Shown one piece after another: positions 6,081 through 45,433 of a stretch of 45,691 nt of DNA. The DNA is from an uncultured Ruminococcus sp. (lineage in GTDB: Bacteria > Bacillota > Clostridia > Monoglobales > Monoglobaceae). The stretch's first letter is position 1; each line of letters starts with the position of its first letter. Both the position numbers and the translations under genes were made by a program. Location: the NCBI GenBank assembly GCA_902791425.1, contig CADAVS010000002.1:1-45691 (forward strand), written 5' to 3'. The notes below the pieces were generated by a model that did not search any database, was not told the DNA's origin, and saw only the letters and a program-made list of their open reading frames with translations.

Positions 6081-6132
6081 GGGACGATGTGGGCATCGTC
6101 CCTTACAAATTCGGCAGGAGCAAGCCCCTGCC
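6081..6132. repeat. Dispersed hairpin repeat, copy A, with a second GC-rich hairpin
   Basis: At 6081-6102 the 9-base arms GGGACGATG and CATCGTCCC flank a 4-base loop, followed by TTACAAA. At 6113-6132 a similar unit has arms GGCAGG and CCTGCC followed by CTACATAA. The first hairpin recurs at 22032-22053 and, inverted, at 45412-45433. It lies between the converging comEC and hydE genes and is far more GC-rich than its surroundings. No protein is encoded here. Confidence 0.8.
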
Positions 6133-17454: not shown

Positions 17455-19725
17455 TTAATCAGCACCAACTTCTGAATAAGAAAAATCAAGTGTAACAACC
17501 GTTCCCGGCTCGACTATCGTTCCTGCCGCAGGATTTTGTGCCGAGCATATGGCTGTGCCTGAACCTGACACGCCTTTAACCCTGGCATTTAAGCCTGCAC
17601 TTACTATTGTTGCCGCAGCCTCAGAGGCACTCAAATTTTTGACATTGGGAATGGTTATATCGCGGGATATTTCCGTTCCGTCAAGATATGCCACAATGGT
17701 AGAGCCTGTTGTAAGCTTTGTATGAGCCTTGGGGATTTGGTCGGTAATAATTTTACCGCTTCCCTTTGTCCTTATTTCAAAGCCTGCTTCCTTAAATATC
17801 TTCTGAGCCTCCTCTACCGACTTGCCCGTAACATCAGGAACTTCAACCTCAACAAATTTCTTTTCATCTTCGTTATACTTAGGCTCAACGCCAATGTATT
17901 GCAGTGTTTCCTCTAAAATATTCTTTACTACCGGAGCCGCTATAACACCGCCGTAGTAAGGCATATCATCTGCCGGCTGGTCAAGGATTACAAGACACGC
18001 CACCTTTGGGTCGTCTGCGGGAGCAAAGCCTATAAATGACGCAATGTAATTGCCGTTTCCACGGGGAATTTTCTCTGATGTACCTGTTTTGCCGGCAATT
18101 CGATAACCTGCAATATATGCATTTTTACCACCGCCCTTAGATACAACAGATTCAAGTATCGAACACATCGTGCTGCTTGTTTCCTCTGATATAACCTGTC
18201 TTACCTTTTCAGGCTCCTTTTTCTCTATAACAATATTATCAGAATTGACTATTTCCTTTACCAAATGAGGCTTATACAAGGTTCCGCCGTTTGCGATTGC
18301 ACTTACAGCGGTTATCATCTGGAGAGGCGTTACGGTGATGGACTGACCAAACGAAGATGTCGCCAGGTCTACCTCTGTAAAATTACTTTCCGTAAAACCC
18401 ACACCTGCTGTTTCACCCGGAAGCTCTATTCCTGTTTCCTCAAAAAATCCAAATGCACGAACATTTTTCAAGAAATCATTTCTGCCGATTTTCTTTCCGA
18501 TAGATATAAATGCCGGGTTACACGAATTTTGTACCGCCTCGGCAAAAGTCTGATGCCCGTGTCCCGAACGATTTGCACAGTGAATTAAATGCGGTCCTAC
18601 CTGCACCGAGCCTCCGCAGTTGAATGTATCCTCCAAGGTGCAAGAGCCGGTTTCCAACGACGAGGATGCCACAACAGACTTAAACGTAGAACCCGGCTCA
18701 TAAGAATCAACAACCGCCTTGTTCCTTCTGACAGTCTGAATAGCTTGATTAAATTTTGTTACATACTCCATTCCGTTAAGGCTTTTAAGTTCTTCCTTGA
18801 TGTTTGGATTTTTTTCTTCTATTGCCTCTGTTATCTCAAACGGAGCATTCAAATCATAATCAGGTTTGGTCGCCATAGCCAAAACTTCGCCCGTATTAAC
18901 ATCCATAACAATTGCCGCCGCACCCTCTTCAAGCTTGTTGGATACACGTGCCTGCTCCAGATGCTTTTCTACATAGCTCTGTATAACTTCATCAATAGTC
19001 AGAACAACACTACTGCCGTCCTGTGCCTCGATATAGCTTTCGTAATCGTTTCCCGATTCTATTCCGGCTGTATCTCTGGTGGAAACAACTCTGCCCGGAA
19101 TACCGCTTAACTGATTATCAAAAACGCTCTCTATTCCTTCAAGTCCCTGATTATCGTCACCGACAAAACCAATAACGTGTGATGCAAGATTGTTATACGG
19201 ATAATATCTCTTCACATCATCCACAAAGCTTACACCCGACACCTTTTTTTGCTCTAAGTACGCTCTTACTTCATCCGTCTTGTCCTTGTCTACCTTCTTT
19301 TTGATATACTCAAAGCTACTTTGCTTATTCACCTTGTTTTCAACATCCTTACTGTCAAGCTCTAATATTCCGGCAATGTCGTTTGCAAAGGTTTGAACCG
19401 ATAGCGACTGCTTTTCAAGTGACGCTCTGAGATTTTTGGGGTCGATACTTATTGTTTCCACAGACGTGTTGCTGGCTAACACCTTATAATTTCTGTCATA
19501 AATTTTACCACGCTTTGCACGAACGGTATTGTCGCTTGTCTGTTGCTCCAAAGCGGCTCTCGATAGCTCCTCTCCCCTGATTATCTGATGCCAAGCTGTA
19601 CGCAGTATAAGAACTGCGAACAAAAATGTTGCCGCCGCCATTATAATTATTATTCTCCTTCTGTGAATAGGTCTGCTGCCTGACACAAAATTATCTGACA
19701 GTTTAGGTCTACGATTTTCGCTCAT
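17455..19725 (-). CDS. ftsI: Class B penicillin-binding protein with PASTA repeats (FtsI/SpoVD type)
   Basis: 756 residues. A short basic cytoplasmic tail and one membrane helix (about 25-45) precede a pedestal domain starting at RGKIYDRN. The transpeptidase domain has catalytic Ser in STFK (about 346), SCN (about 401) and KTGT (about 546). Two PASTA domains end the protein (about 635-755). It crosslinks septal peptidoglycan with FtsW. SpoVD and PBP2B share this layout; as the only class B PBP in the cluster, it is most likely the vegetative division enzyme, though a sporulation role cannot be excluded. GAGG eight bases before the ATG at 19725 makes that the start rather than the GTG at 19734. 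A hairpin precedes it. Confidence 0.93.
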   Translation of the reverse strand: MSENRRPKLSDNFVSGSRPIHRRRIIIIMAAATFLFAVLILRTAWHQIIRGEELSRAALEQQTSDNTVRAKRGKIYDRNYKVLASNTSVETISIDPKNLRASLEKQSLSVQTFANDIAGILELDSKDVENKVNKQSSFEYIKKKVDKDKTDEVRAYLEQKKVSGVSFVDDVKRYYPYNNLASHVIGFVGDDNQGLEGIESVFDNQLSGIPGRVVSTRDTAGIESGNDYESYIEAQDGSSVVLTIDEVIQSYVEKHLEQARVSNKLEEGAAAIVMDVNTGEVLAMATKPDYDLNAPFEITEAIEEKNPNIKEELKSLNGMEYVTKFNQAIQTVRRNKAVVDSYEPGSTFKSVVASSSLETGSCTLEDTFNCGGSVQVGPHLIHCANRSGHGHQTFAEAVQNSCNPAFISIGKKIGRNDFLKNVRAFGFFEETGIELPGETAGVGFTESNFTEVDLATSSFGQSITVTPLQMITAVSAIANGGTLYKPHLVKEIVNSDNIVIEKKEPEKVRQVISEETSSTMCSILESVVSKGGGKNAYIAGYRIAGKTGTSEKIPRGNGNYIASFIGFAPADDPKVACLVILDQPADDMPYYGGVIAAPVVKNILEETLQYIGVEPKYNEDEKKFVEVEVPDVTGKSVEEAQKIFKEAGFEIRTKGSGKIITDQIPKAHTKLTTGSTIVAYLDGTEISRDITIPNVKNLSASEAAATIVSAGLNARVKGVSGSGTAICSAQNPAAGTIVEPGTVVTLDFSYSEVGAD

Positions 19726-19748
19726 CCCTAACACCTCTTGTATAAATT

Positions 19749-19811: not shown

Positions 19812-20402
19812 CTATTTTAAAACCCGAAAAGCATTTACAAGGGTTCCCGACACACCCGTCAACGCACCTGGCGAGGTTTTTGATATCGTTCCCTCTCCGC
19901 TTTCGTCTCCCATATTCATATCTATGTAGAATATTTGATATGATTGAGGCTTCATCATTCCTAAATTTTCTTTTGCATATTTTTCTATTTCATTCATCTC
20001 AAACTGCTTATCTATTTTTGCCTGAGCCGCTTGATTTGATGCTAATATTTCATTTCTTTGAGCTTCTAACTCCTTTATCTGCTGATTACAGGTCAGTATT
20101 ATGCCATATCTGTATAATACTGTGATACACAAAATAAACAATACACCTACAAGCATCACAACCTTTGTCATCTTCGCTCTGCTCACACTTGCCTTTTTAT
20201 CAGACTTTGAGCGATTAGGCATCTTTTCAACTTCAGGCGTTGTCTTTGGGGTGACTCTCGTTCTTGGGTATCTGACAGGAATATCATAAGCCGTGCTGCT
20301 TGTTCCTGTGTACATTCTGTCACTATATACTCTGTCACTGCTGTATAGATTACGCGAATTATATGTATAGCTGTTGTTTTTGTATTTAGTAGGTGCAGGC
20401 AC
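19812..20402 (-). CDS. ftsL: FtsL-like divisome protein
   Basis: About 196 residues. A long cytoplasmic part rich in Tyr, Ser, Arg and Thr (about 75 residues) is followed by one transmembrane helix (about 80-102), a coiled coil (about 104-135, CNQQIKELEAQRNEILA) and an ENLGMMKP motif typical of FtsL/DivIC. The C-terminal 35 residues are low in charge and unusual. FtsL forms a complex with DivIC and FtsQ that activates FtsW-FtsI. The assignment rests on size, topology and position between rsmH and ftsI, since FtsL is poorly conserved. The ATG at 20411 lies directly against its AAAGG, whereas the GTG at 20402 has 9-base spacing and is preferred. Confidence 0.85.
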   Translation of the reverse strand: MPAPTKYKNNSYTYNSRNLYSSDRVYSDRMYTGTSSTAYDIPVRYPRTRVTPKTTPEVEKMPNRSKSDKKASVSRAKMTKVVMLVGVLFILCITVLYRYGIILTCNQQIKELEAQRNEILASNQAAQAKIDKQFEMNEIEKYAKENLGMMKPQSYQIFYIDMNMGDESGEGTISKTSPGALTGVSGTLVNAFRVLK

Positions 20403-20421
20403 AGCTTTCATCCTTTCATAT

Positions 20422-21357
20422 TTATAGTTTTTCTATCACTCTCAGCTTTGCACTGTGAGCTCTGAAGTTCTTATCCAATTCTTCATTAGTTGCAATTATC
20501 GGTTTGCGATTGACCAATTTTACAACAGGCTTTTTTCCGCACACACATATAGGGAAGTCCTTAGGACATACACACCCTGACGCAAGCTCTGAAAAAGCAT
20601 TTTTAACAATCCTGTCCTCAAGGGAGTGAAATGTTATAACTGCCAATCTGCCGCCCGATTTCAAGCAATCAACAAAATCCTTTACAGCCTCTCCAAGTCC
20701 GTCAAGTTCACTGTTGACCTCTATTCTGATTGCCTGAAAGGTTCTCTTTGCAGGATGCTTGTCCCCATATCTTTCAGATGGGGGAAACGCAGTTTTTATT
20801 ATCTCGGAAAGTTCAAGTGTTGTTTCTACGGGCTTTATGCTTCGTCTTTCGCATATTGCCCTTGCAATCCTTCTTGCATATCTTTCCTCGCCATACTTAA
20901 ATATTATATCCGCAAGCTTTGCTTCATCATATGTATTGACAACAAAATAAGCATCTTTATCAGCACTTTTATCCATACGCATATCAAGCCTTGCATTTGC
21001 GTTATAACTGAAACCTCTCTCAGCAGTATCTAACTGATATGAGGAAACCCCCAAATCAAGGATAGCTCCGTCAAGTGCCTCGATGTGCATCTCAGATAAA
21101 ATGCTTTTAATATTGAAAAAGTTATTGTGTGTAAGCACAATGTTGCACTTATAATCGGCAAGTCTTTCCTTTGCCGCAGACAAAGCGTCTTCGTCGCGGT
21201 CAATTCCGATAAGAGTACCTTTTTCAGATAACCTTGAGCAAACAAGTGAAGAATGTCCTCCACCGCCCAAGGTCCCGTCAGCATATGTTCCGTCAGGCAC
21301 AACCTTTAACAAATCAACACTTTCGTCAAGCAGAACAGATATATGTTTGAAATTCAT
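20422..21357 (-). CDS. rsmH: 16S rRNA (cytosine-1402-N4)-methyltransferase
   Basis: 311 residues, the usual length of RsmH/MraW. Family motifs are the N-terminal HISVLLDESVDLL, the SAM site DGTLGGGGHSSL, the segment ILDLGVSSYQLD followed by ERGFSY, then HPAKRTFQAIRIEVNSEL and the late ITFHSLEDRIVK. It methylates N4 of C1402 in the ribosomal P site. It lies 11 bases downstream of mraZ in the standard mraZ-rsmH-ftsL-ftsI order. Confidence 0.98.
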   Translation of the reverse strand: MNFKHISVLLDESVDLLKVVPDGTYADGTLGGGGHSSLVCSRLSEKGTLIGIDRDEDALSAAKERLADYKCNIVLTHNNFFNIKSILSEMHIEALDGAILDLGVSSYQLDTAERGFSYNANARLDMRMDKSADKDAYFVVNTYDEAKLADIIFKYGEERYARRIARAICERRSIKPVETTLELSEIIKTAFPPSERYGDKHPAKRTFQAIRIEVNSELDGLGEAVKDFVDCLKSGGRLAVITFHSLEDRIVKNAFSELASGCVCPKDFPICVCGKKPVVKLVNRKPIIATNEELDKNFRAHSAKLRVIEKL

Positions 21358-21368
21358 ATTCTGCCCTC

Positions 21369-21800
21369 CTATAACCCAATATTCTTTGCAATACTCGAAA
21401 TCTTGTCCATATCAAATTTATTATCAGAATATTTATTCCAATTATCAAGACTCCAAATCTCAACCTTTGTATGCTCACCGACAACGACAATTTCTTTTGT
21501 CAATCCCGCATCCTTGCGTATATCGGGAGGAATAACGGCACGTCCTTGTGTGTCAAGTGCACACTCAGCCGAATGGGACTGAATATATCTCATCATCATC
21601 GCCCTATCCTCCGAGTCAATCTGTGCAACACGTTCCATAAACACGTTCCATTGTTCTACGGGATATACGTTTACACAATTCTCATCAAACACTGCACCGA
21701 AAGCGACAACAAAGGTTTCACCAAGGGCAGACCTGAACTTAGAAGGTATGTTCACTCTGCCTTTCGCATCAATATTTTGTTCATATATGCCGGTTAACAC
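21369..21800 (-). CDS. mraZ: MraZ, transcriptional regulator of the dcw cluster
   Basis: 143 residues, the canonical length, made of two SpoVT-AbrB-like halves, each with a D-x-x-G-R motif (DAKGRVNIP and DTQGRAVIP). MraZ forms a ring-shaped oligomer that binds evenly spaced repeats at the dcw promoter and in studied species represses its own operon. The start is a GTG at 21800 behind AAAGGAGG; the ATG four bases earlier is out of frame and hits a stop at once. A promoter and phased repeats lie directly upstream. Confidence 0.98.
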   Translation of the reverse strand: MLTGIYEQNIDAKGRVNIPSKFRSALGETFVVAFGAVFDENCVNVYPVEQWNVFMERVAQIDSEDRAMMMRYIQSHSAECALDTQGRAVIPPDIRKDAGLTKEIVVVGEHTKVEIWSLDNWNKYSDNKFDMDKISSIAKNIGL

Positions 21801-21869
21801 ATTTGCCGCCTCCTTTCACAGCCGAATTTACAGATATAAATCAGACAAAGAGCCACACAGTTTATTTAA

Positions 21870-21905
21870 TGCATTTCGATACATTTCAATCCATTTCTCT
21901 CCACC
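21870..21905 (-). promoter_or_regulatory. Probable MraZ operator: four 10-bp-phased repeats
   Basis: On the minus strand the elements TGGAGAGAAA, TGGATTGAAA, TGTATCGAAA and TGCATTAAAT follow each other at exact 10-base intervals. They begin at the predicted mraZ start site. MraZ boxes in other bacteria are likewise TG-containing repeats phased by one helical turn. Binding here would block the promoter, consistent with autorepression. Confidence 0.7.
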
Positions 21906-21912
21906 TTTTATT

Positions 21913-21941
21913 ATTCTAATACATTTATATGAAAAAGGCAA
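21913..21941 (-). promoter_or_regulatory. Promoter of the mraZ/dcw operon
   Basis: Minus-strand TTGCCT (21936-21941) and TAGAAT (21913-21918) with 17-base spacing. The predicted start near 21906 coincides with the first phased repeat. Confidence 0.65.
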
Positions 21942-22031: not shown

Positions 22032-22053
22032 GGGACGATGTGGGCATCGTCCC
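22032..22053. repeat. Dispersed hairpin repeat, copy B
   Basis: Same 9-base arms (GGGACGATG, CATCGTCCC) and TGGG loop as copy A, followed by CCTACAAT. It lies in the 430-base gap between mraZ and accA. The AT-rich part of that gap, 21942-22031, shows nothing else. Confidence 0.85.
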
Positions 22054-45411: not shown

Positions 45412-45433
45412 GGGACGATGCCTACATCGTCCC
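45412..45433. repeat. Dispersed hairpin repeat, copy C (inverted)
   Basis: Same 9-base arms as copies A and B, here in the opposite orientation and with one change in the loop (TAGG in the A/B orientation). Confidence 0.85.

Follow-up and report, generated by a model that had tools for sequence, protein, structure and literature searches.

MraZ binding sites have been described as phased direct repeats in front of mraZ. A site from Mollicutes was already known (accessible text of PMC5138195), and the accessible text of PMC5282649 gives it as (AAAGTGKN3)3. Written generally as (AAAGTGKN3)n, this operator consists of TG-cored direct repeats that recur every 10 bp ahead of mraZ. In Burkholderia cenocepacia, the MraZ site comprises four 7-nt repeats with 3-nt spacers, located 3' of the -10 element and over the transcription start site (accessible text of PMC7761207). 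Escherichia coli K-12 carries AGTGGGAAAT TGTGGGGCAA AGTGGGAATA at the same 10-bp steps upstream of mraZ. As for the consequences of binding, transcripts of mraW, MG_223 and ftsZ were increased in M. genitalium without mraZ, whereas overexpression of MraZ in M. gallisepticum was accompanied by more FtsZ (both from the accessible part of PMC8475190); because of the latter result, the sign of MraZ regulation may differ between bacteria. The HsdC site of Mollicutes is also built from TG-centred direct repeats in a promoter, but its spacing differs by 1 nt and HsdC controls a restriction-modification operon (accessible text of PMC5282649). For Clostridia, our literature search, whose reach ended at subscription papers, recognised no description of an MraZ operator.

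We analysed an array of four repeats in the window, that is, the whole stretch of 45,691 nucleotides from an uncultured Ruminococcus sp. Its sequence, phase, conservation and placement at a promoter, along with the identity and predicted fold of the adjacent MraZ, indicate that the array is almost certainly an autoregulatory MraZ operator of the known kind, with binding and repression expected by analogy. Most likely, it represents a form of this operator in which three repeats are altered at one base and which is common in one bacterial lineage. The array makes the architecture of the MraZ operator visible in uncultured bacteria of the Ruminococcus type; as a system it is nothing new in kind.

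Results and Discussion

A phased array at the predicted mraZ promoter

Four TG-containing decamers were found at exact 10-bp steps on the minus strand (21907..21868), upstream of mraZ in the dcw cluster. Box 1, AAGGTGGAGA (21898..21907), lies at the predicted transcription start, and is followed on the same strand by box 2, GAAATGGATT (21888..21897), box 3, GAAATGTATC (21878..21887) and box 4, GAAATGCATT (21868..21877). This confirms what a sequence-only reading of the region had described, namely four decamers at exact 10-base steps by a predicted start site. The GAAATG-type unit that it had proposed holds for boxes 2 to 4; the first unit is AAGGTGGAGA, and only three boxes therefore carry GAAATG. 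The interval to which it had assigned the repeats, 21870-21941, also takes in a promoter-like site; the array proper is 21868..21907. Box 1 keeps GTG, as part of GTGG, and boxes 2 to 4 have ATG, a change of G to A, so that the GTG core of the published consensus AAAGTGK is present in box 1 and absent from the other three.

The promoter-like site consists of a -35-like element, TTGCCT (21936..21941, minus strand), and a -10-like element, TAGAAT (21913..21918, minus strand), with a 17-bp spacer. Five bases separate TAGAAT from box 1, and the array thus lies 3' of the predicted -10 element. From the position of this element, transcription is predicted to start at about 21906, at the first box. 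Taken alone the site is weak, with a match to 9 of 12 consensus positions, and the region held four promoter-like sites where shuffled sequence had 2.0 on average. A box-like TATAAATGT in the promoter spacer (21921..21929, minus strand) is in phase with the array, 20 bp upstream of box 1. We did not count it as a fifth box: in a by-eye reading its TG falls where relatives carry TRTAG before TAnnAT, and it is probably part of the region ahead of the -10 element. At the same offset, AAAGTGTAGT was seen in five relatives (L012, L014, L025, L028 and L042).

The gene downstream of the array is identified as mraZ by its open reading frame, Pfam family and predicted fold (21369..21800, minus strand; 143 aa, GTG start). 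It is the first gene of the dcw cluster, ahead of rsmH (mraW; 20422..21357, minus strand; PF01795, 3.9e-120), a gene for a DivIC-domain (FtsL-like) septum protein (19812..20411, minus strand; PF04977, 3.3e-9) and a gene for a penicillin-binding protein with PASTA domains, assigned from its reading frame and a family match (17455..19734, minus strand); this is the usual dcw order. The protein matched PF02381 in two stretches (1.4e-30; 105.5 bits, cut-off 23). It contains two DXXXR motifs, D11-R15 and D83-R87, which we take to be the defining feature of the MraZ family and which are invariant in an alignment of five sequences from the genus. The second motif reads DTQGR in the window's genome (L001) and in L002 and L003, DSQGR in L004 and DAQGR in L005. 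A monomer structure predicted from five sequences (pLDDT 82.6, the best of five unequal models) matched solved MraZ entries with Z scores of 16.6-17.6, and the next entry scored 5.0. Among the matches were the M. genitalium PDB entries 9r4j, whose title names MraZ with its promoter, and 9sz7, a cryo-EM entry titled as MraZ with a 4 box promoter. In an alignment of 29 MraZ proteins, a three-residue insertion near residues 35-42 (GAVFDENC) was present in L001-L003 and missing from the remaining 26.

Conservation of the array and of its phase

Upstream regions were compared in 151 distinct mraZ loci, 50 from the order and 101 from the wider class, of which 148 had at least 150 bp upstream. The sequence-only reading had proposed a comparison of the phasing in relatives, and the phasing proved to be conserved: among the 143 regions from outside the genus, pairs of AAGTGG occurred 110 times at a lag of 10 bp, 60 times at 20 and 19 times at 30; lags 11, 21 and 31 had 6, 10 and 12 pairs, and no other lag up to 45 had more than 3. 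A 10-bp phased pair was absent from 10 of these 143 relatives in this first scan. Of 145 regions scanned loosely for RTG boxes, 97 carried a run of at least three spaced by exactly 10 bp and 48 did not; the opposite strand gave no such run in any of the 145 regions, and the plain complement gave a run in one. These two served as controls; regions read backward (73 with runs) are unsuitable for this purpose, since GTG reads the same when reversed. In 66 of 101 arrays, a TAnnAT element ended 4-8 bp ahead of the first box with GTG; the gap was different in 13, and 22 had no such element within 22 bp. In two genomes, L033 and L034, the MraZ boxes are 294 and 201 bp ahead of the start codon, and the leader holds inserted DNA that seems repetitive by eye; the leaders of L024 and L026 resemble these, also by eye.

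Within the genus, the two nearest genomes, whose MraZ proteins are 93 and 95% identical to that of the window, have the same 40 array bases (0 of 40 positions vary), and 8 of 54 and 11 of 53 four-fold sites of mraZ differ. Across the three genomes, 11 of 42 positions vary in the leader (Fisher 0.0005 for array versus leader), 13 of 89 upstream of the -35 element and 2 of 34 in the promoter; none of the 25 bases next to the start codon varies. As variation is also low in the promoter and in these last 25 bases, constraint upstream of mraZ is not confined to the array.

Conserved phasing in relatives, the placement of the repeats, and the published and solved operators strongly support the earlier suggestion that the array is the putative operator of its own MraZ. 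The complex of M. genitalium MraZ has, by the title of 9sz7, the same number of boxes as the array. Like the B. cenocepacia site, the array has four repeats 3' of the -10 element and over the start, here both predicted. A point against this assignment is that three of the four boxes are without the GTG core of the published consensus: the Mollicutes operator has GTG (accessible text of PMC5282649) where boxes 2 to 4 of the window have ATG. By our choice, GTG throughout the boxes counts as a consensus and not as a defining feature of an MraZ operator, because 27 of 326 boxes in relatives also have ATG. The sequence-only reading had set the unit apart from the TGGG boxes of E. coli. This is correct for the ATG of boxes 2 to 4, and the E. 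coli boxes, with GTG in each, do have more G after TG than those of the window; the contrast was nevertheless overstated, as E. coli shares the 10-bp phase with a GTGGG core and box 1 keeps GTGG.

By analogy with other species, an octameric ring of MraZ would place neighbouring subunits on the four TG-centred boxes, whose 10-bp spacing turns them all to one side of the helix. Once bound, MraZ would cover about -1 to +39 and block the mraZ promoter, and mraZ, rsmH and the genes downstream would be expressed less. Since the boxes cover the predicted start site, the dcw cluster is expected to be autorepressed here. In boxes 2 to 4, the change to ATG leaves TG and phase intact and is likely to affect how strong each contact is.

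ATG-containing boxes in the lineage

In 98 relatives with at least three boxes at exactly 10 bp, 292 of 326 boxes had GTG, 27 had ATG and 7 had another core. ATG was seen in 0 of 98 first boxes, 5 of 98 second boxes, 14 of 98 third boxes and 8 of 30 fourth boxes, counts that come from a box scorer favouring GTG over ATG. In the loose scan, which does not have this preference, A began the core in 3 of 97 first boxes, in 13 of 132 boxes in the middle and in 17 of the 97 last boxes; the three first boxes are ATATGT, located one step ahead of the GTG run, and we read them as a -10 element. GTG is kept in box 1 of nearly all relatives with arrays, and the pattern of the window (GTG, ATG, ATG, ATG) is an extreme case of this positional trend. 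When MraZ proteins were clustered at 70% identity, ATG occurred in 0 of 47 first boxes versus 10 of 47 last boxes (p 0.001), and at 60% identity in 0 of 23 versus 4 of 23 (p 0.11). The difference between first and last boxes is weaker once related proteins are collapsed, and is suggestive only.

GAAATG is fixed in boxes 2 to 4 of the three nearest genomes, and the other two genus members have mostly GTG (GTG, GTG, ATG, GTG in L004 and GTG, GTG, GTG, ATG in L005). The proposal that the repeats could define a clade-specific motif thus holds for the three genomes but not for the whole genus. ATG is much commoner in a wider lineage that includes the genus, and the motif is best restated as the mark of a lineage with frequent ATG in the boxes that follow box 1.

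We then related MraZ residues to box cores in 129 of the 148 genomes, namely those with two or more boxes counted from the first that has GTG. Beyond box 1, ATG made up a mean share of 0.56 in 18 genomes whose MraZ has Q8, versus 0.07 in the other 111, most of which have H8. An ATG box occurred at least once after box 1 in 16 of 18 Q8 genomes versus 15 of 111 others, and half or more of these boxes were ATG in 11 of 18 versus 6 of 111. The share was likewise 0.49 with N17 (20 genomes) versus 0.08, and 0.55 with T84, in the second DXXXR motif (16 genomes), versus 0.08. The Q8 set includes the window's genus and two further genera (L007 and the members within L016-L034 in one; L006, L008 and L015 in the other), and ATG boxes in this lineage are mixed with GTG boxes and do not replace them. 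On a quick MraZ tree, built with columns 8, 14, 17, 33, 77 and 84 left out, Q8 and F14 each arose once, N17 five times and T84 three times. Sign tests had one or two independent pairs among those listed, which are too few to decide, and Q8 provided one pair. The association between Q8 and ATG boxes is real in this sample, and inheritance from one common ancestor could explain it; because Q8 arose once on the tree, relaxed recognition and shared ancestry are indistinguishable here.

In nine genomes of a sister genus (L016, L018, L020, L022, L023, L027, L030, L033 and L034), DAKGR is changed to DAKFR (F14), and the later boxes carry TGT (rarely TGC, or one TGG) instead of TGG. The base after TG was not G in 0.96 of the boxes after box 1 in these genomes, versus 0.16 with G14. 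This is a possible co-change of protein and operator, with one event on the tree.

A broader proposal, which we put forward only tentatively and consider improbable as a whole, is that MraZ and its operator co-changed in one lineage. Replacement of H8 by Q, along with N17, partly T84 and the sister-genus change of G14 to F, all of them next to the two DXXXR motifs, would have loosened recognition, from GTGG to RTGN, after the first box. The box at the start site would have been held at GTG as a strong nucleation box, the weak boxes of such a graded array would set the threshold of autorepression, and the window's clade would be the extreme form.

A stronger version, in which MraZ recognition has shifted and ATG boxes are now favoured over GTG boxes or fully their equal, with GAAATG as the true motif of the lineage and not a weakened box, appears still less likely. 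The ATG shares with Q8, T84 and N17, the 16 of 18 Q8 genomes with at least one ATG box, and the unchanged boxes 2 to 4 of three genomes are as it would predict. However, the single change to Q8, with its one independent pair, is explained equally by shared ancestry, and box 1 stays GTG. The N-terminal loop YEQNIDAKGRVNIPSKFR is identical in L001 and L004 (L002 and L003 have S20A), although three of the four boxes of L004 have GTG, and T84 in combination with H8 (L014, L025 and L028) accompanies GTG only. The natural variants of the boxes (GTG or ATG, TGG or TGT) and of MraZ residues 8, 14, 17 and 84 could be used to test which bases and boxes the MraZ ring needs.

Alternative explanations and a search for further sites

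In place of an MraZ operator, the repeats could have been kept for the leader RNA, as an upstream reading frame opening at their ATGs. The ATG of box 3 does open a frame of 18 codons in L001 and L003. The frame is only 9 codons long in L002, the L001 and L003 peptides differ at 4 of 18 residues, and most relatives have GTG boxes. We rejected a leader peptide on these grounds, and regard this explanation as very improbable. Chance, or a curvature-related periodicity of AT-rich intergenic DNA, deserves practically no credence even though the region is AT-rich with A-tracts, given that dinucleotide shuffling of the 433-bp intergenic region produced three identical 6-mers at a 10-bp step (each 6-mer having three or more different letters) in 1 of 5000 shuffles and that relatives show the same phase on a single strand. 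At any step from 7 to 15, three such 6-mers were obtained in 9 of 5000 shuffles of the same region.

Three RAARTG units at 10 bp had a sole perfect match in the window's own genome (1.8 Mb, 84% complete), which was the mraZ array. Allowing up to one mismatch gave three matches, of which two were the mraZ array and the third sits within a 423-aa ORF, and the reversed control gave 0. In the five genus genomes, 19 matches were obtained with up to one mismatch, of which 10 were at mraZ; the 9 in other places compare with 8 in the reversed control, and this pattern therefore indicated no second MraZ target or wider regulon in these five genomes.

Other repeats

A palindromic repeat, GGGACGATGTGGGCATCGTCCC, was seen near the array at 22032-22053 and again at 6081-6102 and 45412-45433 of the window. 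It is presumably REP- or MITE-like, with 25 copies in the window's own genome at up to two mismatches, and 0 for the reversed control. In a further sequence (L170:700-760), phased AAAGTGTTGC AAAGTGTCGC AAAGTATGAT directly precede a -10-like element that is followed by a small gene. This site may be MraZ- or C-protein-like, and its surroundings look phage-like, as far as we can judge.
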